A DNA stretch of 49,212 bases from a virus. The notes below the pieces were generated by a model that searched no databases, was not told the origin of the DNA, and saw nothing but the letters and a program-made list of their open reading frames with translations. The position numbers were made by a program, and so were the translations under genes. The DNA lies in the IMG/VR virus record IMGVR_UViG_3300025282_000054, positions 1 to 49,212 of that record; one strand, given 5' to 3'. Each line of letters begins with the position of its first letter. The first letter of the stretch is position 1. Positions 18,353 through 30,384 of the stretch are shown in pieces.

Positions 18353-18645
18353 CGATTATATTGGCCTTGTTTGCTCTTGGCATGATTGTCGGTTGGTTGA
18401 TCGCCACACGGGAATCCACCGACAGCATCGAGCGATTCCGCTACAGTGACCAGAAGTTCTACGAACGGTGGAAGGCTTACTGTGAATTGGAAAAACGATT
18501 AGGGGAGAGACACGATGAACATTCTGGTCACAGGAGCAACGGGAGCACTGGGTCGGGCCGTTCTTCGTTATGCGTTGAGACAAAAGGAAACAACGAGAGT
18601 GGCAGCGTTCGCTCGGTCCGAGTCGAGACTGACGGAACTGACTAG
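18328..18645 (+). CDS. small membrane protein with long 3' overlap (105 aa)
   Basis: ATG 18328 has GAGG 8 nt upstream; GTG 18349, inside motif copy 5, is another possible start. A membrane helix (VTIILALFALGMIVGWLIA, residues 8-26) is followed by a charged helix. The last 43 residues are Ser/Gly/Arg-rich and overlap the start of the dehydratase gene by 131 bp in another frame, so the natural end of this protein may have been lost by mutation or sequencing error. Function unknown. Confidence 0.45.
   Translation: MESNFGGVTIILALFALGMIVGWLIATRESTDSIERFRYSDQKFYERWKAYCELEKRLGERHDEHSGHRSNGSTGSGRSSLCVETKGNNESGSVRSVRVETDGTD
18344..18354 (+). repeat. dispersed motif GAGGGGTGACG, copy 5
   Basis: Exact 11-mer, preceded by G, spanning the stop of the HNH gene and lying early in the small membrane protein frame, before the sugar cluster. 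Confidence 0.6.
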
Positions 18646-19540
18646 CGAACTTGGACACTACAGCACCTTCCGTCCTTTTCTTGGCGACATACGAGACGAA
18701 GGTCGGCTCCGCGATGCCTGTGTCGGAGTGGACACAGTGATACATGGGGCAGCCCTCAAGAGAGTAGACGACGGCGCTTACAATCCGCTTGAGATGCACA
18801 AGACGAACGTAATGGGCAGCATCAACGTGGCGAACGCTGCGAGGGCTGAGGGAGTTCGGAATGTCGTGCTGGTCTCTTCCGACAAGGCGGTGTCTGCCAT
18901 CAACACGTATGGCGGCAGTAAGTATCAGGCCGAGAATTGTCTGAGGGAATTGAACGCGCATTCTGCACCACGAGGCACACGGATTTCTTGTGTCCGGTAT
19001 GGCAACGTGCTTGGCAGTACGGGGAGTGTGCTTACGCTCTGGCATAAACAACACCGGCAAGGTGGAAGACTGGTTCTGACTGACAAGCGGATGACCCGTT
19101 TCTGGATGACGCTCGATGAAGCGGTGCGCCATGTGTTTAAGGCGCTGCGAATAATGCGCGGCGGCGAGATTATTATTCCGATGATGCAAAGTTCAACGCT
19201 CTGGTTGTTAGCTCAGGCCTATCAGGACGTAACTGAATGGGTAGATTGCGAGATACAGGAGATGGGCGTTCGTACTGGTGGCGAGAAACGACATGAGTCC
19301 TTAATCAATGAGGACGAGGCCACTAGAGCGATTGCCCAAAAGGGTGTCGTGGTAATTCCACCGGCTGTGCATTCGTGGACCGCTGATGAATGGAAGACCG
19401 ATGGGACGGTGACTGTTCCACATCCATACCATAGCAATGCGGTGAAATGCTGTACGCATACGCGGAAAAGTCTGCGCGGAGTTCTTGAGTCGATAGAGGG
19501 AGTGTGGAAAAGTCCCGAGGTCCGTTGCCAAGTCAGGTGA
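18515..19540 (+). CDS. pseB-like: UDP-GlcNAc 4,6-dehydratase-like SDR (PseB/FlaA1-type)
   Basis: A protein of 341 aa with GGGGAGA upstream. It is an extended SDR: NAD-binding TGATGALG (residues 6-13), GDIRDEGRL, HGAALKRV, then the catalytic SSDKA with Asp123-Lys124, Tyr132 and Lys136 (DK-x7-Y-x3-K, as in FlaA1/PseB), RYGNVLGSTGSV and TDKRMTRFWMTL. PseB-family enzymes convert UDP-GlcNAc to a 4-keto-6-deoxy sugar nucleotide, the first step to pseudaminic and related acids. It opens the phage sugar cluster. The family is clear; the exact epimer made is not determinable from sequence. Confidence 0.85.
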   Translation: MNILVTGATGALGRAVLRYALRQKETTRVAAFARSESRLTELTSELGHYSTFRPFLGDIRDEGRLRDACVGVDTVIHGAALKRVDDGAYNPLEMHKTNVMGSINVANAARAEGVRNVVLVSSDKAVSAINTYGGSKYQAENCLRELNAHSAPRGTRISCVRYGNVLGSTGSVLTLWHKQHRQGGRLVLTDKRMTRFWMTLDEAVRHVFKALRIMRGGEIIIPMMQSSTLWLLAQAYQDVTEWVDCEIQEMGVRTGGEKRHESLINEDEATRAIAQKGVVVIPPAVHSWTADEWKTDGTVTVPHPYHSNAVKCCTHTRKSLRGVLESIEGVWKSPEVRCQVR

Positions 19541-19734
19541 GCCTACCGTTCACGTTGACTCTGGTAGGGCGACTCACCCAATCGAGTCGTGGCGTGTGGC
19601 ATGTGGTCGATAACGTAATGACCGGAGTGCGGTTTGGTTACTTCAAGGCCAAGTGCGGACTTGATACTCACTATACGTTCGACGGTCAAGCTGGAACGCT
19701 GTGTCGTAGGTGCAAAAAGTCTGGCACTGGGTAG
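19537..19734 (+). CDS. small cysteine-containing protein (65 aa)
   Basis: GTG 19537 overlaps the previous TGA; no strong ribosome binding site, so coupled translation is assumed. Features: WHVVDN, KCGLDTHYTF, and LCRRCKKSG near the end, which could form a small zinc knuckle. Its stop abuts the ATG of the oxidoreductase gene. No family is recognised; its place inside the sugar operon does not by itself give a role. Confidence 0.5.
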   Translation: MSLPFTLTLVGRLTQSSRGVWHVVDNVMTGVRFGYFKAKCGLDTHYTFDGQAGTLCRRCKKSGTG

Positions 19735-20628
19735 ATGGATAAGCAGGCCTTAGTCATTGGACTTGGTTCGATGGGTCAACGCCACCTGCAGTACATGGGA
19801 GAGCGTGCTGGTGTCTCACGGTTTGGCTGTGACAGGAGACCGGAGACGTTTCCAGACGGAGTGCCGTGTGTGCAGGACATTACACAGGCGCTTCACTGTT
19901 TCTCGCCGTCGCTTGTCGTTATTGCGTTGCCAGCGAGATATCACTTGGAAACGCTGTATCAGGTTCGACAGGCACATCCGGACGCGAGCATCTTGGTTGA
20001 GAAGCCACTATCCGATCGTCCGTTGTCAGACGAGGACAAGGAACGATGTCTCAACATCGGGGGCATTGTGTGTGTCGGGTATAACTGGAGATTTCATCCG
20101 TTTGCCAAGATGCTGCACGGAGTTCGGGATGCGATTGGGGATATCACTTTCCACGTAGGTAGTGACATGCGGACATGGCCCGGGAGTGATTACTCAGATC
20201 CGTTGCGGGAGTTTTCCCACGAGTTGGACTTGGTTGCATATCTTACGTCCATGCCTCAGGTCACGGACGCAACCATGACTCCGCACGGTCGTTATGTTGT
20301 GGATGGATTTCATAGTCATGGTCGCTGGCGTGTTGTCATTGCTCCGTATCATGAGCCAGTCGAGCGATGGGTGAATGTGGAGATACGACCACCGGTAGGC
20401 AACGGGCGAGTAATGACATACCCGTGGGATATGCAGTCACACACGCTGGAGGCAATGTATAGGGCGCAGTCGTTTCGGTTCCAGAGAATGTCTACGGTTG
20501 GTATCGCTTCGGCCATGGACTCATCGCGCCTGCTGTGTTCCGTGTCGGATGCGTTGATGACCACGGGGCTTATAGATAATGCCGAAGTGTTGCTGGCTCG
20601 AAAGGACAAGGGATGTCTCATTATGTAG
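19735..20628 (+). CDS. Gfo/Idh/MocA-family oxidoreductase
   Basis: A protein of 297 aa starting directly after the preceding TAG. The Rossmann motif GLGSMGQRH (residues 9-17), VVIALP, VEKPLSD with Glu89-Lys90-Pro91, GYNWRFHP and EFSHELDL with His162 and Asp165 are the conserved elements of NAD(P)-dependent sugar dehydrogenases of the Gfo/Idh/MocA family. Members oxidise or reduce hydroxyls of (nucleotide) sugars. In nonulosonate-type clusters such an enzyme can supply a keto-sugar for an aminotransferase, which is present at 23609. Substrate inferred, not proven. Confidence 0.82.
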   Translation: MDKQALVIGLGSMGQRHLQYMGERAGVSRFGCDRRPETFPDGVPCVQDITQALHCFSPSLVVIALPARYHLETLYQVRQAHPDASILVEKPLSDRPLSDEDKERCLNIGGIVCVGYNWRFHPFAKMLHGVRDAIGDITFHVGSDMRTWPGSDYSDPLREFSHELDLVAYLTSMPQVTDATMTPHGRYVVDGFHSHGRWRVVIAPYHEPVERWVNVEIRPPVGNGRVMTYPWDMQSHTLEAMYRAQSFRFQRMSTVGIASAMDSSRLLCSVSDALMTTGLIDNAEVLLARKDKGCLIM

Positions 20629-21473
20629 AGCGTCTTGGCTTACGTGAGCGTCGGACCTATGTCATTGCCGAGGCTGGGTCATGTGGTGATGCGACTCCGA
20701 ACAAGATGGCGGAACAGATCGACCGATGTGCCGATGCTGGATGCGATGCTGTGAAATTCCAGTGGACCTCAAGCGCAAAGGAGATGGCGCGCAGGCGTGG
20801 TCGTGCTACGGCAGATGGGTATGACCTCATTTATCAGCGTTACCTTGAGTGGCCAGACGACTGGCACGCCATTCTTCAGGCTAAGTGTCAGGAGCGAGGA
20901 GTGGATTACCTGTGTTCGGTCTATCTTGCCAGCGATGTGTACGTGGTCAGCCCGTATGTCAGTCACTTTAAGGTGTCGAGCTTTGAGGCACTGGACTGGA
21001 CGTTGCAGTCTCGGGCGATATCGGAATGCCTGCATTCGCTTCGGAAGTGTATGTTCGTTTCGGTAGGGATGTGCAGCGACGATGAGGTGGAAACATTGCG
21101 CCGTCAGTATGCGGCATCGCCGTTTGTTGCTTTGTTGCATTGCGTGACGGCTTACCCTACGCCCTTTGGCTCAATGAATCTGTCGTCTATTTATCGCAAT
21201 GGCCTTGATGGGTTTTCCGATCACACTGATCCCGCGATAACCATGACTGGTGCGCTAGCAGTAGCGGCCGGTGCGAGGATTATCGAGGCGCACATGCGTC
21301 TGGAGAATACAGACCCTTTGAATCCAGACGCTGCTCATGCTATGACACCGGACCAGCTTTCGGACTACGTTTCTCGTATTCGGATGGTGGCACAGGCGAT
21401 GAGTAGGCCGGAAGATGATGATGTCCAAGACAACATGCGGTGCTATCGAGTGGGAGATACCTTTGGAGACTAA
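20613..21473 (+). CDS. neuB-like: NeuB/PseI-like nonulosonic acid synthase lacking the SAF domain
   Basis: A protein of 286 aa; ATG 20613 overlaps the previous gene. NeuB motifs: IAEAGSCGD near 18-26, DAVKFQ (45-50), FKVSSFEALD, SVGMCSDDEV, LLHCVTAYPTP (175-184), FSDHTDP and IIEAH. The two manganese-ligand histidines (His204 and His227 here) are kept, while the Lys of the usual IIEKH is Ala226. Known members condense phosphoenolpyruvate with a hexosamine to a nine-carbon acid. The protein ends right after the barrel, so the C-terminal antifreeze-like (SAF) domain of about 60 residues is missing. Chemistry is plausible; exact product unknown. Confidence 0.8.
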   Translation: MSHYVERLGLRERRTYVIAEAGSCGDATPNKMAEQIDRCADAGCDAVKFQWTSSAKEMARRRGRATADGYDLIYQRYLEWPDDWHAILQAKCQERGVDYLCSVYLASDVYVVSPYVSHFKVSSFEALDWTLQSRAISECLHSLRKCMFVSVGMCSDDEVETLRRQYAASPFVALLHCVTAYPTPFGSMNLSSIYRNGLDGFSDHTDPAITMTGALAVAAGARIIEAHMRLENTDPLNPDAAHAMTPDQLSDYVSRIRMVAQAMSRPEDDDVQDNMRCYRVGDTFGD

Positions 21474-21909
21474 TCTGAGGCGGGCAACGATGGAGGACGC
21501 GGAAGCTGTTTACAACTGGCGCAACGATCCGAAGGTGCGAGCGGTCTCCAGAAGCGTCGGCGAGATTGATTATGCCGCTCATGCGTCATGGTTCGCAGAA
21601 CGTATTCCACTGACGCATCCAGAGACTGTGTGGATAATCGAAGCAGACGATGGAGTCGGGATAGGAAGCGCCCGTATCAATTGCTATGAGGACGATGATC
21701 GGGCAGAAATAAGTGTGGTGCTTGGTGAAGAGCATAGGAGTCGAGGTGTGGGTCGACAGGTGATTAAGCAGTTGGCTGACAAGGTTCGGGCAATGGGTCG
21801 GGTGCCAACTGCGTTCGTTCGACCTGATAACAGGCGTTCCCTTAATACGTTTACGGCAGCAGGGTTCACCTATGTGCTTCCGGTGATTGAGTTACATGTC
21901 AGGGATTAG
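21421..21909 (+). CDS. GNAT acetyltransferase, PseH-like
   Basis: About 162 aa from ATG 21421, which overlaps the NeuB-like gene; in-frame ATGs at 21415 and 21418 precede it. The domain begins NLRRATMEDAEAVYNWRNDPKVR, and contains the acetyl-CoA site EEHRSRGVGRQVIKQL and the terminal PDNRRSLNTFTAAGF. The N-terminal LRxxxxxDxxxVxxWRN pattern is that of PseH and similar N-acetyltransferases acting on amino-sugar nucleotides. In this cluster it would acylate an amino group made by the aminotransferase. Confidence 0.75.
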   Translation: MSKTTCGAIEWEIPLETNLRRATMEDAEAVYNWRNDPKVRAVSRSVGEIDYAAHASWFAERIPLTHPETVWIIEADDGVGIGSARINCYEDDDRAEISVVLGEEHRSRGVGRQVIKQLADKVRAMGRVPTAFVRPDNRRSLNTFTAAGFTYVLPVIELHVRD

Positions 21910-22936
21910 CGTTAAGGAGAAAGAGTCGGTAAACGTGTACGGCAGGGAGATGTTTCGGAACAGCGAGACATGGGATGGGTTTGTTGATCGTCATCATGCT
22001 GGTTACTGGTGGCATCGACAGGCGTGGTTGGACTATTCGCTATCGTATGACCCGAAGGCAGTGGACCGATCGTTCGCTGTAGTCGTAAAGTCCAATGGAT
22101 ATCCGAGGGTGATGGCTGTCTGTCCTGCGATAGAACGGGACGCGATCATTTGCATGGGCGCAGGTGATGTGCCGTGTGCTGGTCCGTTAGTTATCGATCA
22201 CCAAGACGAGACGTACACGTCGTGGTATCGGGAAGTATTGTTAAGGAACATTCAATCACGTCTCGGTGGATGTCGCGGTTGGTGGTCGTGGAATCGAGAG
22301 CCAAGTGATTCGCGTGAACTGATTCAGGTGTTGGCAAAGCGTCTGTCCATGGGGCAGTCGGTGACAAGCACATCATTGGTATCGGTGCGGAACGAACGGG
22401 CGTGGTTTGGTTTACGTAAGAGCTATAGGTCGTTGGTGTTGTCTGCGGCTCGGGAGTACGACATCGGATACGGGTTTGCTGACCTCTGGCCGTATTACGA
22501 AATGTGCCATCGACACTGTGCCACCAGAGAGCGTGACGGTGATACCTATCTTCATCAGTTGCGATGGTTGCGTCAGGCGTCGGCGTTCGTGGTTGTAGCG
22601 TTGCCAAAGCATGGAGGGACAACGGGGGCAATGAACCCAGATGGTCGGGTGACCTCTTCATTGTCTTGGGTTGCGTCAGGTTCGGGTCCTGATCCCTCGT
22701 CTACATTGGCTGCTGCCTATGTTCTCGTGTATAAGGGGCGCGCCTACTATGCAAGTGGGCCGAGTGTGCAGAGTAACCTGCAACATGCTCTACAGTGGGC
22801 GGCGATACAGGCGGTAGCTCGACTCGGTGGACACACTTACGAGCTTGGACATCATACCGATGACGGTATCGGCTTTTTTAAGCGAGGGTTCAGTAAGGAT
22901 GTTGGCAGCGTTGATGTCTTGAATGGGTATATATGA
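21896..22936 (+). CDS. FemAB/double-GNAT-like acyltransferase
   Basis: A protein of 346 aa from ATG 21896 (overlaps the GNAT gene; weak ribosome binding site). The N-terminal half shows WWHRQAWLDYSL and CAGPLVID; the C-terminal half has the GNAT-like tail YYASGPSV, HALQWAAIQAVARLGGHTYELG and IGFFKRGFSKD, the pattern of FemAB-type transferases (family feature: substrate sugar or amino acid acylation, often using aminoacyl-tRNA or acyl-CoA). In this context it may acylate the nonulosonic sugar or its glycan. The identification rests on the C-terminal pattern. Confidence 0.6.
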   Translation: MSGISVKEKESVNVYGREMFRNSETWDGFVDRHHAGYWWHRQAWLDYSLSYDPKAVDRSFAVVVKSNGYPRVMAVCPAIERDAIICMGAGDVPCAGPLVIDHQDETYTSWYREVLLRNIQSRLGGCRGWWSWNREPSDSRELIQVLAKRLSMGQSVTSTSLVSVRNERAWFGLRKSYRSLVLSAAREYDIGYGFADLWPYYEMCHRHCATRERDGDTYLHQLRWLRQASAFVVVALPKHGGTTGAMNPDGRVTSSLSWVASGSGPDPSSTLAAAYVLVYKGRAYYASGPSVQSNLQHALQWAAIQAVARLGGHTYELGHHTDDGIGFFKRGFSKDVGSVDVLNGYI

Positions 22937-23616
22937 CCAGACAAGTGGTGGCAATCATACAGGCGCGCCTTGGAAGCTCTCGATTTCCTCGGAAGTCACT
23001 GGCTATGTTCAAGCATCGGCCGATGATCGAGCATGTGATCCAGCGTGTCCAGCAAGTGCCATTGATTGACGAGGTTGTGGTGACGATTCCAACGCTGGAT
23101 AAAGCGTTGATTGATGTCGTTCGGGACTATGGTTCTCGACTGGTGAACACGGATGTCGGGAATCGCCCAGTGCGTATCGCGTGTGGTCCAGAGCAGGACG
23201 TTCTTCTGCGGTACTGGTTGGCGGCGTGCGAGTATCAAGCCGATGTAGTGGTTCGCGTGACAGGCGATTGCCCGCTGTGGTCATCTAAGGCTGGAAATAC
23301 AGTGGTGAAAGCCTTCCTTGAGGATAAGAAGCGTCGAGCGTTTTGGTCGAACGATACGACCTTGAGTGGGTGGCCAGACGGAACTGATGTTGAGGTGTTC
23401 TCGATGGATCTGCTCCGTCAGGCACGGAACGCTCGGAGTACGCTAACGAATGACGATCGGGAACACGTTACGACGTGGATGAGGAGGCAACTGCATGGGA
23501 AGTGTGGTGTGGTCTATCGCAAGGAGGACAACATCTCGTCCCTCAAGTTATCGGTCGACACGATTATGGATCTCTTGAGGATTGAGACATTCGATGAGGC
23601 GTTATTGCATGGATGA
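22933..23616 (+). CDS. spsF-like: SpsF/CMP-nonulosonate-type cytidylyltransferase
   Basis: A protein of 227 aa, 4-bp overlap with the previous gene (ATGA). Signature IIQARLGSSRFPRKSL near residues 8-22 (CTP-binding loop), HVIQRVQQ, CGPEQDVLLRY, VVRVTGDCPLW, DGTDVEVFS and REHVTTWM. This is the SpsF/NeuA-like family that activates acidic or other sugars with CTP. It would convert the acid made by the NeuB-like synthase to a CMP-sugar donor. The following aminotransferase starts inside this gene's end. Confidence 0.82.
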   Translation: MTRQVVAIIQARLGSSRFPRKSLAMFKHRPMIEHVIQRVQQVPLIDEVVVTIPTLDKALIDVVRDYGSRLVNTDVGNRPVRIACGPEQDVLLRYWLAACEYQADVVVRVTGDCPLWSSKAGNTVVKAFLEDKKRRAFWSNDTTLSGWPDGTDVEVFSMDLLRQARNARSTLTNDDREHVTTWMRRQLHGKCGVVYRKEDNISSLKLSVDTIMDLLRIETFDEALLHG

Positions 23617-24736
23617 AAGCAAATTATTGGAACGTGCGCGTCTGGTAACGCCCGGTGGCGCACAAACTTCCAGCCGGAGACATGGGAATGTTGGTCCCCG
23701 TTCTTATCCACCGTTTGCAACACGAGGAGAAGGAGCGTATTTATACTTCAACGACGGCACAAGAGCGATTGATTTGGCTGGGTCGAATGGCGCGGCGGCG
23801 CTTGGCTATGCTCATCCAGAGGTCGTGGCGTCCGTAGAGCGATACATAGGCAGTGGGTGTACCTTGTCGTTGCCGACTGGCCTTGAAGTTGAGGCATCGG
23901 AGGCGATGATCCGAGGCTTTGACTATGATGTCGCGGTGCGGTGGGTTCGTACAGGAAGTGAGGCTGTATCTGCTGCGGTCAGCGTGGCGCTTGAGGCGAC
24001 AGGTCGTGAGGCTGTTGCCGCGTTGGAAGGCTCCTATCACGGCTGGCATCCGTGGACCAGAAAGGTTTCTCGTTACGAGAGTGTGGATAAAGTGCCATTG
24101 GAGAATGTGGCAGCGTTGCTGATTGAGTCTCCTCGATGGCGTGAGGTTGATAACGATTACATTGTCTCCCTTCAACGGATACGGAACCTGTGCAATCGGC
24201 ATGGTGCCTTGTTGATATTCGATGACGTAGTGTACGGATTTCGTTTTGCCGTAGGTGGATTAACCGAAACAACTGGCGTCCGGTCCGACCTGTCCTGTTT
24301 TTCTAAGGCGCTTGGCAATGGAGTGCCGGTTGGGTGTGTGGTTGGTTCAAGGGACCTAATGATGCGCACTGGTTATCGAGTTAGTAGCACGTTCGGTGGG
24401 GAGACAGTTGGCTTGGCGGCAGCCAGAGCGGTGCTGGCATTACATGCGGAGTTCGATGTATGCGGAGAGCTACGCGAGATGGGAAGACGATTACGATCTG
24501 ACCTCGACGATGGCTTGCGGTCGTCTCCGATACGGGTGGAGGGAACACCGCAGCATTTCCGCTTCGTCTCTGACCACCCAAATACTTTGGAGCGTTTTTT
24601 GACTTTATGTATGCAGCAGTCAGGAGATGCTCGGGTGCTGATACATCGAGACGCCAACAATATTAACCTGATGATGAATGAGTCCATACGGCAACGCATA
24701 GTTGATACGGTCTGTGCCGCTGCCAGTCATATCTAG
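23609..24736 (+). CDS. class III PLP aminotransferase (GSA-aminotransferase-like)
   Basis: A protein of 375 aa starting at ATG 23609, inside the end of the cytidylyltransferase gene. It is a fold-type I PLP enzyme: TPGGAQTSSR start, GSEA (116-119), YHGWH (143-147), IFDDVVYGFR (Asp205) and the Schiff-base lysine in SKALGNGVPVG (Lys233). Closest family features are those of glutamate-1-semialdehyde aminomutase-like enzymes, several of which act in polysaccharide clusters next to NeuB and SpsF. It would place an amino group on a keto-sugar. It takes the place of the DegT-type aminotransferase PseC, which I do not see in the window. Confidence 0.8.
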   Translation: MDESKLLERARLVTPGGAQTSSRRHGNVGPRSYPPFATRGEGAYLYFNDGTRAIDLAGSNGAAALGYAHPEVVASVERYIGSGCTLSLPTGLEVEASEAMIRGFDYDVAVRWVRTGSEAVSAAVSVALEATGREAVAALEGSYHGWHPWTRKVSRYESVDKVPLENVAALLIESPRWREVDNDYIVSLQRIRNLCNRHGALLIFDDVVYGFRFAVGGLTETTGVRSDLSCFSKALGNGVPVGCVVGSRDLMMRTGYRVSSTFGGETVGLAAARAVLALHAEFDVCGELREMGRRLRSDLDDGLRSSPIRVEGTPQHFRFVSDHPNTLERFLTLCMQQSGDARVLIHRDANNINLMMNESIRQRIVDTVCAAASHI

Positions 24737-24744
24737 GAGGAGAC

Positions 24745-25293
24745 ATGGCAGAGCAAAAGAAGCAGTGGCGCAATCGAATCATCGGTCAAGGCGAGGAGGT
24801 GCCAGATCAATTGCTGGCAAATCCTAAGAACTGGAGAATCCATCCCAAGGAACAGCAGGAGGCGTTGGGTGGAGTGATGGAGCGTGTGGGTTGGGTGCAG
24901 CAGGTCGTGGTAAATAAACGGACAGGCTTCGTGGTTGATGGACACTTACGTGTCAGCATGGCGATTAGCAGGAGCGAGCCTATGGTCCCTGTGGTGTATG
25001 TGGATCTGTCTGAGGAAGAGGAGGCGTTAATTCTTGCGACTATCGACCCGTTGGCGGCGCTGGCAAAAACAGACAACGACCAATTACGTGATTTGGTGAC
25101 AGACATTGGGGTCAATGAGCAGATACGTGACCTCTTGGCCGCTCTTCGCTTGCCCGTTGATGTTGCAGACGTGCCTCCTGACGAGTTTGATATGGTTGAT
25201 CCCAATGCTCATTCAAAATTTCGGTGCCCAAAGTGCGCCTATGAGTGGGACGGCTCACCGACACCTCAAAAGGATGACCAATCAGCGCAATAA
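24745..25293 (+). CDS. ParB-like nuclease-domain protein with C-terminal CxxC
   Basis: A protein of 182 aa; TAGGAGGAGAC precedes ATG 24745. Residues 20-70 hold the ParB-N/Srx-like core: NPKNWRIHPKEQQEAL, GWVQQVVVN and VVDGHLRV (residues 64-70). The C-terminus has FRCPKCAYEWDG, a single CxxC half zinc ribbon. Phage ParB-like proteins of this type commonly neighbour DNA methyltransferase genes. It is directly followed by the phased repeat array at 25301, a natural candidate for its binding region. Role inferred: DNA binding or processing coupled to modification. Confidence 0.75.
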   Translation: MAEQKKQWRNRIIGQGEEVPDQLLANPKNWRIHPKEQQEALGGVMERVGWVQQVVVNKRTGFVVDGHLRVSMAISRSEPMVPVVYVDLSEEEEALILATIDPLAALAKTDNDQLRDLVTDIGVNEQIRDLLAALRLPVDVADVPPDEFDMVDPNAHSKFRCPKCAYEWDGSPTPQKDDQSAQ

Positions 25294-25300
25294 ACGAGAT

Positions 25301-25468
25301 ATTCGGCACGTTCGGTGCGTTGTCGGCGTTACGGCGCGCACCGAATGCACCAAATGAGCACCGAATCAGCACTGAATGCACCGAATCAGCACCGAATCAA
25401 CCGAACTCGCACCGAACGTGCGCCGAACATACCAAACGTGCGCCGAACACACCGCATACGCGCCAAAC
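25301..25468 (+). repeat. array of about 13 GCACCGAAT-like repeats at 9/11-bp spacing
   Basis: Nine-base units related to GCACCGAAT start at 25338, 25347, 25358, 25369, 25378, 25389, 25398, 25409, 25420, 25429, 25440, 25449 and 25460. Steps are 9 or 11 bp (mean 10.2), about one helical turn. Two inverted units (25301-25309 and 25310-25318) precede the array. It lies in a 213-bp gap between the ParB-like and PP-loop genes. An origin iteron array, a ParB-type centromere or a multi-site operator would all fit; the region has no credible gene. Confidence 0.7.
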
Positions 25469-25506
25469 CACTGTATTTATAGCCTTAAACGGACCGTATA
25501 AGCCGA

Positions 25507-26313
25507 ATGAATGTTAGAGAGACCCTTGCTTCTTTAATCGAGCCACTACCTACGCCTCTGCCCATTGCAACATCTGGGGGAATAGACTCTTCGTCGCTGA
25601 CATTAGCGGCTAGGGATGCAGGAAAGGACCCGATTATTGTCTCGTTTACGTTGGCCGATCGGGAGTCGGCTGACTTTGTGGCAGGCCGTAAGCTCGCTAA
25701 TCACTTTGGATTTGAGTTTCGGCCAGTGATTCTTCCTGTGGATACAGATGTTATCTGTGGAGACGTGATTCGGCTCATTCGGCGCTACGGTGCTCGCCGT
25801 AAAACAGCCATCGAGTGTCTCTGGCCGTATTTGCACGTCTTGGAAACCCTCAAGTCCTTAAATCATTCAGTCCTCCTTACTGGTAATTCCGCTGACGGAC
25901 ACTTCGCTCTGTCACGCAAGGCGATGGTTCGTTATAGGGTGCGAGAGTCTAAGGAGCAATTCCAGCTGTTCAGACAGCACTTCTACGCCAATCCCGAGTC
26001 ATCCCAGATTGGCTTTTTGCATCGTATCTATTCACAGGAGAACATTCAGGTCCATACCCCGTGGTTTGATCCAGCGCTGTTTGCCCTGTTTGAGGATTGC
26101 ACGTGGGAAGAAGTGAATAAGCCGAGACAAAAGGAAGTTGTCCGCGTGGAATTTCCAGAGTTGGATACATTGCACATTGCTGGCTACTCGCCATTGCAGC
26201 TTGGCGATTCTGGGATCGCTTCAACGGTAGGCGATGCTGTCAGGAGGCGATATGCCCCAGAAGCCAAGTCTCCCATTCGCGCCTACAACCTAATCGCTCA
26301 GGCCTCATCATGA
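25507..26313 (+). CDS. asparagine-synthetase-type PP-loop amidotransferase domain, no glutaminase
   Basis: A protein of 268 aa from ATG 25507. PP-loop SGGIDSS (residues 23-29), ANHFGFEF, LLTGNSADGHF (126-132, counterpart of the GEGSDEVF loop of AsnB) and VHTPWFDPALFALF (counterpart of the ARVPFLDxxFLDVA motif) identify the AsnB synthetase domain. In AsnB that domain adenylates a carboxylate and hands it ammonia. The usual N-terminal glutaminase domain is absent, so ammonia or another amine must come from elsewhere. It overlaps the DNA methyltransferase gene by 4 bp, so amidation of a carboxylated base is a reasonable hypothesis; direct proof is lacking. Confidence 0.78.
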   Translation: MNVRETLASLIEPLPTPLPIATSGGIDSSSLTLAARDAGKDPIIVSFTLADRESADFVAGRKLANHFGFEFRPVILPVDTDVICGDVIRLIRRYGARRKTAIECLWPYLHVLETLKSLNHSVLLTGNSADGHFALSRKAMVRYRVRESKEQFQLFRQHFYANPESSQIGFLHRIYSQENIQVHTPWFDPALFALFEDCTWEEVNKPRQKEVVRVEFPELDTLHIAGYSPLQLGDSGIASTVGDAVRRRYAPEAKSPIRAYNLIAQASS

Positions 26314-27425
26314 AACCTGCCTATGTAGTGCCGACGCTTGCTGAAGTGGAATCGCTTTCATGGAATGGCCTGAATGTTGTGTCGACCTTTAGCGGTGGTG
26401 GTGGATCGTGTCTTGGGTTTCGCATGGCAGGCTATCGCACATTGTGGGCCAGTGAGTTTATTCCGCTGGCAGCAGAAACCTATCAACTGAATCATCCGAA
26501 CGTGTTCTTGGACACTAGAGACATCAGGCAGGTGCATCCTGATGACATTCTCAAGCGAGTGCCGTCTGGTGAATCGGTGCATGTGCTGGAAGGCTCGCCG
26601 CCTTGCGCTGCATTCTCGTTGGCTGGCAAGCGAACAAAGGGATGGGGTCAGGTAAAGAAGTATTCCCAGACCGAACAGCGCGTTGATGACCTGTTTGAGG
26701 AGTTCCTTCGACTGGTCGCTGGCGTCCAGCCGTATGTTTTTATTATGGAGAACGTGAAAGGTCTTATCGGCGGTGCGTCGAGTGGCGTGCTGCAGGACAC
26801 ACTGGAGACGATGCGAGCGATTGGCTATCGCGTGCAGGCTCGGGTGCTAGATGCTCAGTGGTTGGGTGTCCCGCAGTCTAGGGAGCGTGTCATCTTTCAG
26901 GGTGTACGCCGTGACCTTAATCGTCAGCCGGTATGGCCTAAGCCGCTCAACTATCAGTATTCGATTAGGGAGGCTGTGCCTAGTCATGTGCTACGACATG
27001 CACATGGAGCTCCGTTCCCGAATCATGTCTTTGGCAAGACGTATGCTGGTGAAACCTTTGTAAGCAGTGTCGCTAATGATGTGCCTGAGCTTACAAAGAA
27101 CGATCAGGCTCGGGTGCACTACGTGTTTGGTCATGGACATGCTAACTTCCTTCAACGTGGACAGCCCCTCTCGCTGAATAAACCAGCTCCGACTATCATG
27201 GCAACGGCCGATAGCGTCGAGAAGCACCTTAAAACCAACTGGGCAACCTATCGCCGTCGTCTAAGCATGGATGAATTGCGTCTCCTCTGTTCGTTCCCGT
27301 CAGACTTTCGATTGGCGGGCGAGAGTTACATCAGGCAATGGGAGCGTTTTGGTCGAGCGGTGCCACCATTGATGATGCGAGCGGTGGCAGAAACGATACG
27401 GGATAAGATTTTTGGCCCTGTATAG
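26310..27425 (+). CDS. cytosine-5 DNA methyltransferase with Asn-to-Arg in motif X; probable DNA carboxymethyltransferase
   Basis: A protein of 371 aa; ATG 26310 overlaps the PP-loop gene stop. C5-MTase motifs: I FSGGGGSCLGF (27-37), IV GSPPC with catalytic Cys99, VI MENVKG (Glu147), VIII QSRERV (189-194), and motif X near the C-terminus. Motif X is normally GN[AS]V; here it is G348-R349-A350-V351 (codon CGA at 27354). That Asn lies by the cofactor methyl. In M.MpeI the engineered N374K change (recalled from literature) enables use of carboxy-SAM. With a CmoA-like gene next door, DNA 5-carboxymethylation is my leading inference; plain methylation remains possible. Confidence 0.9.
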   Translation: MKPAYVVPTLAEVESLSWNGLNVVSTFSGGGGSCLGFRMAGYRTLWASEFIPLAAETYQLNHPNVFLDTRDIRQVHPDDILKRVPSGESVHVLEGSPPCAAFSLAGKRTKGWGQVKKYSQTEQRVDDLFEEFLRLVAGVQPYVFIMENVKGLIGGASSGVLQDTLETMRAIGYRVQARVLDAQWLGVPQSRERVIFQGVRRDLNRQPVWPKPLNYQYSIREAVPSHVLRHAHGAPFPNHVFGKTYAGETFVSSVANDVPELTKNDQARVHYVFGHGHANFLQRGQPLSLNKPAPTIMATADSVEKHLKTNWATYRRRLSMDELRLLCSFPSDFRLAGESYIRQWERFGRAVPPLMMRAVAETIRDKIFGPV

Positions 27426-27440
27426 TCCGAGACGGGAAAT

Positions 27441-28178
27441 ATGATGAGGGATACAGTAGAGCCTGACGGTGCGTGGGTGTTCGACACTACGGTGGCAGCG
27501 TCCTTCGACGACATGTTGGAGCGTTCGATTCCACAATATTCAGTAATGCGAGACGCTGTAACGGGAATCGGCTGTCGATTCATGGATAAGGTGCAGGGAC
27601 ACGGCACGATTATCGACCTTGGATGCTCTCGGGGAGCGGCCCTTGCCCCGTTTGTTGACCGTTACGGTCAGTCGGCTCGGGTGCATGGGATAGAAGTCAG
27701 CCAACCTATGCTCGACGAGGCGCGCACCCTGTTTGCTGAACCCATCAAGTCGGGCATCGTTACGTTGGAAGGGATTGACCTACGAACAGACTGGCCCACG
27801 ATTGACACAACCGTCCACCCTAATTACCTCACACTGTGTATCCTGACGTTGCAATTCATCCCGATGGAACATCGGCAGCGACTCTTGGCTAGCGTCTTCC
27901 AGACGATGGAGTCTGGTGGCGCGTTCATCTTGGTAGAGAAGGTGCTCGGCGCAACCAGTTCGCTCGATACGGTCTTCAAAGGCGAGTATTACCAACTCAA
28001 GCGTGAGCATGGCTACTCACAGGAATCTATCGACCGGAAGCGACTGAGCCTTGAAGGTGTGCTGGTGCCTGTCACGGCAGAATGGAATGAGGGCCTGCTC
28101 AGGCAGACAGGCTTTCAACAGGTCGATTGCTTCTGGCGCTGGATGAACTTCGCCGGATGGGTTGGAGTTAAGCCTTAA
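27441..28178 (+). CDS. cmoA-like: carboxy-SAM synthase, CmoA-like
   Basis: A protein of 245 aa, 15 bp after the methyltransferase gene. It aligns by eye along its length with E. coli Cmo[21 protein letters not shown] matches [30 protein letters not shown] matches the SAM motif [25 protein letters not shown], and [17 protein letters not shown] match TLQFL, GGALVLSEK, and GYSELEISQKRSMLENV. The Arg equivalent to CmoA Arg199 (which contacts the carboxylate of cxSAM) is Arg201 here. CmoA makes cxSAM from SAM and prephenate for tRNA wobble modification with CmoB. No CmoB is visible, so cxSAM is likely used by the adjacent DNA methyltransferase. Confidence 0.9.
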   Translation: [245 protein letters not shown]

Positions 28179-28183
28179 CGTTC

Positions 28184-28197
28184 GTTAATTGATTAAC
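28184..28197 (+). promoter_or_regulatory. 14-bp palindrome GTTAATTGATTAAC, operator-like
   Basis: The reverse complement of the palindrome at 4814-4827. It sits just upstream of an extended -10 box, within the -18 to -5 spacer side of a putative promoter, where a bound regulator would block RNA polymerase. Confidence 0.55.
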
Positions 28198-28198
28198 G

Positions 28199-28207
28199 TG
28201 GTATCCT
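28199..28207 (+). promoter_or_regulatory. putative extended -10 promoter
   Basis: TGGTATCCT (TG at 28199-28200, hexamer TATCCT 28202-28207). Predicted start about 28214, which is where the self-complementary RNA candidate begins. No good -35 is seen; the extended -10 and overlapping palindrome support a regulated promoter. Confidence 0.4.
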
Positions 28208-28213
28208 AGCCTT

Positions 28214-28307
28214 GCGTGTCGGACTTGCCTCACGTGTCGCCTCGCCATAAAACGCCTTGCGGCTCTAGTCGCCCTCATACCAGACTGAAGGGGCCTCTCC
28301 GACACGC
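28214..28307 (+). ncRNA. candidate structured RNA upstream of the packaging genes
   Basis: GCGTGTCGGA 28214-28223 pairs perfectly with TCCGACACGC 28298-28307, closing a 74-nt loop that can form GCC/GGC (cgccttgcggc) and AGTC/GACT stems. The 5' end coincides with the predicted transcription start. A second copy of CGTGTCG at 28233-28239 could compete for the same partner, allowing an alternative fold. It lies in the gap before the small membrane gene and terminase. It may be a free small RNA, a packaging RNA or an mRNA leader. Confidence 0.45.
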
Positions 28308-28326
28308 ATTTATTGTAGGTAGGGGT

Positions 28327-28494
28327 ATGCTGAACCTCACTCTCATTGTGAACTGTGCGGCGACGATAGGCTTGGCAGGCGCAGTCGTCTTGGGCGAGGA
28401 GACACTGGTGTCCATCGGACTGGCATATGTCTCCGGACTCTTGACCGCGTTCGCCAGTCGTTACCATGTAGCCCTTGAGTCGAACGGGTCTTAA
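28327..28494 (+). CDS. small two-helix membrane protein (55 aa)
   Basis: ATG 28327 with TAGGTAGGGG upstream. The sequence has two hydrophobic segments (LTLIVNCAATIGLAGAVVLG and LVSIGLAYVSGLLTAFA) and a short polar tail. It resembles a small holin-like or membrane accessory protein, but it lies beside terminase, not endolysin. Function unknown. Confidence 0.55.
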   Translation: MLNLTLIVNCAATIGLAGAVVLGEETLVSIGLAYVSGLLTAFASRYHVALESNGS

Positions 28495-28526
28495 TGTAAG
28501 GGCTAAAATGCCACGCGAGGGTTAAC

Positions 28527-28982
28527 GTGGACACTATAAAAAAGACTCGGCGCAAAGGTGGACGCCCGAAGGGTAGTAAGGCGAAGGGATCGGGCGAGTG
28601 GAAGCCTGTGTTCCTGTCTGTCCTGCAGACGATGCCAGTGGTGCGTATAGCGTGCCAGAAGGCGGGGATCTCTCGGTCGGAAGCGTACAAGGTGCGGTCG
28701 TCTGATCCAGAGTTTGCGCTGGCATGGCAACAGGCGCTACAGGACGGCGTTGATATGATTGAGGCCACTCTTCATGCACGGGCGCGGAAGAGTGATACGG
28801 TTGCGGCCATCTTCCTGCTGAAGAACCTGCGACCTGAAGTCTACGGCGAGAATGTCAACGTGAACGTAAGTGGGTCGCTTTCCATCGAGGAAGTCAGTCA
28901 GGCGCGGGCCTCATTACATGCCAAGCTCACCCAAATTGCCAGCACCGTCGCCCCCGGCGAGAGACGGATCACTGTCGAATGA
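28527..28982 (+). CDS. terS: terminase small subunit
   Basis: A protein of 151 aa from GTG 28527 with GAGGG upstream. A basic N-terminus (KKTRRKGGRPKGSKAKG) is followed by a helix-turn-helix-type block VRIACQKAGISRSEAYKVRSSDPEF, a helical oligomerisation segment (MIEATLHARARKSDTVAAIFLLKNLRPEVYG) typical of small terminases, and a Glu-rich end. It should recognise the phage pac/cos site. The large subunit gene overlaps its 3' end. Confidence 0.8.
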   Translation: MDTIKKTRRKGGRPKGSKAKGSGEWKPVFLSVLQTMPVVRIACQKAGISRSEAYKVRSSDPEFALAWQQALQDGVDMIEATLHARARKSDTVAAIFLLKNLRPEVYGENVNVNVSGSLSIEEVSQARASLHAKLTQIASTVAPGERRITVE

Positions 28983-30384
28983 ATCACTGGCGGTACTGAC
29001 GGCGGCTGACCAGAGTGTTACGCAAGAGATCCTAGACAGTCTCACTCCAGCAGAGGCAGCCCTGCTTCGCTATGAGTGGAGGTTCTGGGCGCGACCAAAC
29101 CAATTAGCTCCAGCAGGCGAATGGGGTATCTGGTTACTGATGACTGGTCGAGGCTTTGGGAAGACCAGAGCGGGTTCGCAGTGGGTCATCGAACAGGCGC
29201 AACACCCGGGACATCGTATTGCCATCGTCGGTCGTATCCCTGCTGACTGTCGGGACGTCATGGTTAACGGCGAGTCCGGCATCTTGAGGTGCAGCCCTCC
29301 AGACTTCCGTCCGCTCTACGTGCCAAGTCAACGTCTCTTGAAATGGCCGAACGGGTCAGAGGCGAAACTGTTCTCCAGTGAGAAGCCTGCCGACTTACGT
29401 GGCCCAAACTTCCACTGTGCATGGATTGATGAGTTGGCGAAGTATGACCAAGCACAAGAGACATGGGACACACTGGTCATGGCGGTGCGTCTCCCAGACG
29501 AGCCGCGCATCGTGGTAACGACTACGCCTCGGCCCATCCCTGTCATCAAACGATTAATGGACGACCCGGCTACCCACATCACGCATGGTTCCATTTATGA
29601 CAATCGCACAAACCTAAGCGCCAAGTTCTTTGAACGTCTCATCAAACGGTATGAGGGAACCTATCTTGGTCGACAGGAACTAGAAGGACTCCTTATAACG
29701 GATCGTCCCGGGGCGCTGTGGGCGCGGTCGACCTTAGAGAACCAGCGGGTGTCTGTTGCGCCAGAGGAACTGTCTCGTATCGTCGTGGCGATTGACCCAC
29801 CGGCAACCGCATCTGAGGATAGCTCCGAAGCGGGCGTCGTGGTTGTTGGTCGTGCGAGTGACGGAACGTCCTACGTCTTGGCTGATGGCAGTCTGCATGG
29901 CACGCCAGATGAATGGGGTCGACAGGCTGTGAGGCTGTATGACCAGTTTGAGGCAAACCAGATTGTGGGTGAGGTGAACAACGGGGGCGACATGGTGGGC
30001 TTCACTGTGCGGGAGTGTGCCAAGGCCCTACATCGTGATGGTGAACGCGAGACCAGCGCAGTGCCATACGTGCCAGTGCGTGCTAGTCGCGGCAAGCTCA
30101 CCAGAGCCGAGCCTGTGTCTGCTCTGTATACCCAAGGGCGAGTGAAGCATGTCGGCGTCTATCCAGAACTGGAAGACCAATTGACCTCATGGTTGCCGGG
30201 AGAACAATCGCCCGATCGCTTGGATGCACTGGTGTGGGCGTTGACATCGTTGGTCATCTACAGCGGTGATGACATCGAGACATGGGGTGGCGCTGACACC
30301 GCGTCCGAATCGAGCGAACACGTTCGGGATGTTGTGAAACATGAAGGGTCATGGTTTCCGTCTGGTGTCTCGTCTCGATGGTGA
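28918..30384 (+). CDS. terL: terminase large subunit
   Basis: About 488 aa from ATG 28918 (no strong ribosome binding site; a nearby alternative start cannot be excluded). ATPase: Walker A TGRGFGKT (Lys82), Walker B CAWIDE (Asp171-Glu172), coupling VVTTTPRP. Nuclease: VVAIDPP with Asp293, followed by the second acidic cluster region (GEVNNGGD) and DRLDALVWAL. It is the packaging motor and cuts concatemers. It overlaps the small subunit by 65 bp. Confidence 0.92.
   Translation: MPSSPKLPAPSPPARDGSLSNESLAVLTAADQSVTQEILDSLTPAEAALLRYEWRFWARPNQLAPAGEWGIWLLMTGRGFGKTRAGSQWVIEQAQHPGHRIAIVGRIPADCRDVMVNGESGILRCSPPDFRPLYVPSQRLLKWPNGSEAKLFSSEKPADLRGPNFHCAWIDELAKYDQAQETWDTLVMAVRLPDEPRIVVTTTPRPIPVIKRLMDDPATHITHGSIYDNRTNLSAKFFERLIKRYEGTYLGRQELEGLLITDRPGALWARSTLENQRVSVAPEELSRIVVAIDPPATASEDSSEAGVVVVGRASDGTSYVLADGSLHGTPDEWGRQAVRLYDQFEANQIVGEVNNGGDMVGFTVRECAKALHRDGERETSAVPYVPVRASRGKLTRAEPVSALYTQGRVKHVGVYPELEDQLTSWLPGEQSPDRLDALVWALTSLVIYSGDDIETWGGADTASESSEHVRDVVKHEGSWFPSGVSSRW

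Follow-up and report, generated by a model that had tools for sequence, protein, structure and literature searches.

The question raised by this locus is whether a DNA cytosine C5-methyltransferase homologue that carries Arg at the position of the motif X Asn, and is encoded beside a homologue of the carboxy-SAM (Cx-SAM) synthase CmoA, uses Cx-SAM and, in that case, which base the phage makes. The window analysed was a 49,212-base IMG/VR virus record, taken over its whole length. It very likely encodes a CmoA-CmoX-CmoY system of DNA hypermodification, in which 5cxmC would be made and then joined to an amine. Natural C5-carboxymethyltransferases (CmoX) occur widely in phages; the 5,615 candidates listed have SPPC and the motif X Arg, and their frequent neighbours are CmoA, a ParBc protein and an amide ligase (Yang et al., Nat Commun, December 2025, PMC12783734). 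Enzymes of the CmoX/CmoA/CmoY kind are already published there, and the Arg is a known family signature, not a new invention.

CmoX, its Motif X and the Neighbouring CmoA

26310..27425, forward strand: cmoX, putative DNA cytosine C5-carboxymethyltransferase, 371 aa (Pfam PF00145; best PDB match 8YF3; R349 opposite R350)
27351..27362, forward strand, within cmoX: motif X, GGTCGAGCGGTG, G348-R349-A350-V351, with Arg at the Asn position
27441..28178, forward strand: cmoA, Cx-SAM synthase homologue, 245 aa (phrog_4752, E 2e-63; PDB 1IM8/4GEK/4IWN); R201 corresponds to E. coli CmoA Arg199

The product of the open reading frame at 26310-27425 is a homologue of C5 cytosine methyltransferases (Pfam PF00145, E 8e-49) in which the features of the fold were all present (SPPC, ENV, and QxRxR). 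The original prediction had read motif X as GRAV, with Arg for Asn, and the remaining catalytic motifs as intact in a gene that was not decaying, and the sequence bore this out: the R349 codon occupies 27354-27356, the motif continues as GRAV-P-P, and Cys99 (SPPC), Glu147 (ENV), and Q189-S-R191-E-R193 (QSRER) are intact and were invariant in the alignments. Sequencing error or gene decay behind R349 was ruled out, since the frame is open, the identical CmoX protein is encoded on three further IMG/VR contigs that come from separate metagenomes, and Arg was found in 137 of 153 distinct homologues.

SpCmoX in complex with Cx-SAM (8YF3) was the top PDB match to CmoX by sequence (E 2e-50) and also by predicted fold (E 3e-24). 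The proposed equivalence of R349 to the cofactor-site Asn held in both phmmer and MAFFT alignments, which placed it opposite Arg350 of SpCmoX and N304 of M.HhaI. All contacts with Cx-SAM named for SpCmoX are kept, F25, E47, F48, D69, C98, and R350 of SpCmoX corresponding to F27, E49, F50, D71, C99, and R349 of the window protein; the first four of these are adenine and ribose contacts. Arg350 of SpCmoX contacts the carboxylate/carboxymethyl group of Cx-SAM, the wild-type enzyme uses only this cofactor, and its R350N variant is inactive (PMC12783734). The use of Cx-SAM, which had been predicted from Arg beside cmoA by analogy with engineered M.MpeI, is supported by this homologue (34% identical; PMC12783734), and, like SpCmoX, the CmoX of the window would form 5cxmC in a Cx-SAM-dependent manner. 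A trace of its target motif, sought in the window as avoidance of GC or CG dinucleotides, gave no clear signal.

The neighbouring gene, also predicted to encode a Cx-SAM synthase, proved to encode a CmoA homologue whose best PDB matches were 1IM8 and 4GEK. The carboxylate-binding Arg is kept as residue 201 (numbering inferred from the PDB alignment and the chain length); its E. coli counterpart, Arg199, forms a salt bridge with the carboxylate of Cx-SAM (PMC3663124). Phage CmoA supplies the cofactor to CmoX, which host CmoA is also able to feed (PMC12783734). The window CmoA would be expected to convert SAM and prephenate into Cx-SAM.

Association of the Motif X Arg with CmoA

Relatives of the methyltransferase were gathered from viral contigs, genome contigs, and public phages with both Arg-type and Asn-type seeds. 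The distinct homologues (n = 153) comprised 137 proteins with Arg, 14 with Asn, one with Met, and one in which the position was missing owing to a frameshift; these totals are biased by the seeds and by retrieval limits, the robust part being the contrast between the Arg and Asn classes. CmoA was encoded within 4 kb of 134 of the 137 Arg-type proteins vs. 0/14 of the Asn type and 0/1 of the Met type (Fisher P = 4e-18 for 134/137 vs. 0/15 Asn/Met-type proteins, relatedness not removed). The absence of this neighbour from GNxV homologues agrees with what the original prediction implied, and CmoA was likewise absent from nine Asn-type records (4 to 88 kb) searched over their whole length. Three Arg-type proteins had no CmoA within that distance: Erwinia phage Yoloswag has the gene about 14 kb away, and the two others (L156 and L172), with none in their records, may rely on the CmoA of the host.

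When a tree was computed with the motif X residue left out, proteins with Asn fell into few groups, one of them an 11-member clade inside the Arg proteins. Only two independent Arg/Asn contrasts lay on well-supported branches, so that the association is formally not independent of descent, and the direction of change for the 11-member Asn clade is uncertain because the root of the tree is on a long branch. The co-inheritance of Arg and CmoA independently confirmed the motif X Arg as a reliable mark of DNA methyltransferases using Cx-SAM; an Asn relative from the window's own lineage lacks both CmoA and CmoY.

It is very unlikely that CmoX simply makes 5mC, with Arg as a tolerated substitution and the neighbouring cmoA serving tRNA modification. 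Membership of CmoX in PF00145 would fit such an enzyme, and CmoA is indeed a tRNA-modification gene in bacteria. However, Arg tracks CmoA across the homologues (134/137 vs. 0/15), no CmoB was seen beside the window cmoA, and CmoA, CmoX, and CmoY are exchanged together within the lineage. Moreover, SpCmoX, with the same motif X Arg, cannot use SAM (PMC12783734).

Some loci found in the survey had peculiar arrangements. The CmoX of Erwinia phage Yoloswag (L122:16397-18505), with the GR motif, is split by an apparent intein just before the catalytic Cys. In a Staphylococcus phage SPbeta-like (L124:5980-7679), cmoA directly precedes an HhaI-like C5-methyltransferase in which motif X is VGGVIN and the Arg position is taken by Gly; this could be either another route to the use of Cx-SAM or an unrelated pairing.

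The Amide Ligase CmoY and Its Altered Loop

25507..26313, forward strand: cmoY, single-domain asparagine-synthetase-like amide ligase, 268 aa, PP-loop SGGIDS, without glutaminase domain (Pfam PF00733)

CmoY of the window is 31% identical to SpCmoY (E 1e-28) and has the features of that type of ligase: an AsnS ligase domain, the PP-loop SGGxDS, no glutaminase domain, and a position adjoining CmoX. Its AF2 model (pLDDT 92) matched AsnB (1CT9, TM 0.79). SpCmoY joins the DNA-borne carboxylate to glycine, and the amine substrates of the ligase were left as a question in the CmoX paper (PMC12783734). The motif H-x-N-L-Q-L-G-[DS], a feature defined by the present survey and not by that paper, is carried with few exceptions by single-domain CmoY homologues, SpCmoY included, whereas residues 227-234 read YSPLQLGD in the window protein and its identical copies vs. 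HxNLQLGD in the family, Y227 and P229 replacing the near-invariant H and N. The changed loop suggests either an altered substrate or a loss of function.

Were CmoY inactive, CmoX would make 5cxmC and this bare base would be the final mark. The departures at Y227 and P229 are compatible with this, as are loci with CmoX and CmoA and no adjoining ligase, such as that of Moraxella phage Mcat8. Nevertheless, the PP-loop and the other conserved residues of CmoY are intact, its frame is open, identical copies occur on three other contigs, and the model is of high confidence, and we regard an inactive CmoY as unlikely. We favour a ligase that joins 5cxmC to an amine. As the ligase sets the final base, the loop change is the best hint of a product other than the glycine amide; the amine joined here may not be glycine, and the ligase, with its altered loop, is a specific candidate for one that uses a new amine.

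ParBc Protein, Repeat Array and Upstream Sugar Operon

24745..25293, forward strand: ParBc-type protein, 182 aa, C-terminal CPKCAYEW (PHROG ParB-like/DNA methyltransferase families)
25338..25470, no strand assigned: array of ~11-nt repeats, GCACCGAATCA, between parB and cmoY (TRF and repeat finder)
18515..24736, forward strand: sugar operon, seven mostly overlapping genes (Pfam; same operon in L109, L112, and L113)

The four published partners are all present in the window (ParB at 24745, CmoY at 25507, CmoX at 26310, and CmoA at 27441) in a tight ParB-CmoY-CmoX-CmoA order in which CmoY and CmoX overlap. The repeat array at 25338-25470 scored highest among the tandem repeats in the window and, among 155 distinct CmoX-type loci scanned, it was seen only in the lineage of the window. 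The repeats are possible protein-binding iterons, the ParBc protein being the candidate ligand.

Upstream, the operon encodes, in this order, a PseB-like dehydratase, a Gfo/Idh/MocA oxidoreductase, NeuB, a GNAT protein, a 349-aa protein of unknown function, an SpsF-type cytidylyltransferase, and a class III aminotransferase, and it is probably devoted to the synthesis of a nonulosonate-type sugar, as judged from these families. A search of the literature on phage nonulosonate operons found nothing directly relevant. A sugar-linked hypermodification, with the aminotransferase/NeuB/cytidylyltransferase operon making the amine attached by CmoY, might be suspected from the mostly overlapping genes, which stop 8 bp before parB, and from a CmoY loop motif unlike that of glycine-type ligases. 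This is most improbable: L109, L112, and L113, relatives without CmoA and CmoY, keep the operon beside 7-deazaguanine or plain C5-methyltransferase genes, and it is absent from other CmoAXY loci. On this double pattern the operon probably neither belongs to the CmoAXY system nor feeds CmoY, and it was rejected as the amine source. The simplest reading is that it would serve a surface or virion glycan.

A Putative Exchange Slot between ParB and the Terminase

28527..30384, forward strand: small and large terminase genes, downstream border of the slot (PHROG terminase)

The region from ParB to the terminase was compared with that of relatives whose large terminase is 74-81% identical to that of the window; it extends over 24745-28527 in the window, L109:11125-15863, L111:1574-3234, and L113:11271-13060. 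L113 has the same upstream sugar operon as the window and matches it in the large terminase (76%), portal (70%), and DnaB (66%). From the aminotransferase to the terminase it holds ParB and a C5-methyltransferase whose motif X is GNAV; CmoA and CmoY are both missing. This methyltransferase is only 37% identical to the window CmoX and represents a replaced gene, a point reversion from Arg to Asn in this lineage being ruled out. L112 resembles L113 in the slot, its methyltransferase being frameshifted. In L109 (large terminase 79%), ParB is followed by a 7-deazaguanine set (DpdA-like transglycosylase, QueC, DUF6884, QueD, QueE, FolE, and a phosphoribosyltransferase). Direct reading showed ParB with an ABC-ATPase-GNAT fusion in L111 and L202, and L110, which has the same spacing, was assigned the same content. 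Immediately ahead of the small terminase gene, L199 and L200 end with an apparent C-terminal part of an amino-methyltransferase (DPFAGTGTT, by eye), and the slot of L206 contains a phosphoribosyltransferase.

Since differing modification genes occupy one place in related phages, the ParB-to-terminase stretch behaves, on gene content, as a putative exchange slot for DNA modification genes. A broader proposal is possible but rather doubtful as a whole: that the amine which CmoY, with Y227 and P229, joins to 5cxmC is neither glycine nor ammonia, the resulting base being one not described before, and that the slot swaps unrelated modifications (5cxmC-amide, 5mC, 7-deazaguanine, and possibly Mom-like acylation) beside ParBc. 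As far as the main text of PMC12783734 goes, the words slot and swap are absent, and the putative slot, the CmoY loop change, and the persistence of the sugar operon without CmoA, CmoX, and CmoY appear to be additions to it; the literature on ParB-associated exchange slots yielded nothing directly relevant. Related phages that differ in the modification chemistry encoded in the slot form a natural series, useful for finding what each modification protects against.

Proposed Pathway

Gene identity, residue equivalence, and the joint inheritance of Arg and CmoA are shown by the sequences, and the chemistry of the CmoA-CmoX-CmoY system is taken from the published homologue; that these proteins are active, which amine they use, and which motif they target are inferred. 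CmoA would convert SAM and prephenate into carboxy-SAM. Cys99 of CmoX would attack C6 of cytosine and the carboxymethyl group would be transferred to C5, with R349 holding the carboxylate of the cofactor. CmoY would then adenylate the DNA-borne carboxylate and join it to an amine. Glycine was used in the only case tested, and a different amine may be used here; the product might shield phage DNA from host nucleases. Counted against this pathway were the moderate identity to characterised enzymes (25-34%), the deviation in the CmoY loop, the weak target-recognition region in the AF2 model of CmoX, and the SPbeta-like cmoA beside a non-Arg methyltransferase.

Comparison with Known Systems

The window shares with Synechococcus phage S-B43 (PMC12783734; 8YF3) three adjacent enzymes, the motif X Arg, all the Cx-SAM contacts, and a single-domain ligase, with identities of 34% for CmoX, 31% for CmoY, and 25% for CmoA. 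The two differ in gene order (CmoY-CmoX-CmoA in the window vs. CmoA-CmoY-CmoX in S-B43), in the ParBc protein present in the window, and in the CmoY motif (YSPLQLGD vs. HINLQLGS). Streptomyces phage TurkishDelight also has ParB, CmoX (45% identical, with Arg), and CmoA close together; unlike that of the window, its ligase (466 aa) carries a glutaminase domain, which points to ammonia as its amine. A basic residue at the position equivalent to R349 of the window CmoX gives M.MpeI N374K the use of Cx-SAM (cited in PMC12783734), but this is an engineered, CpG-preferring enzyme, whereas the CmoX of the window is natural and is accompanied by a gene for dedicated cofactor synthesis.
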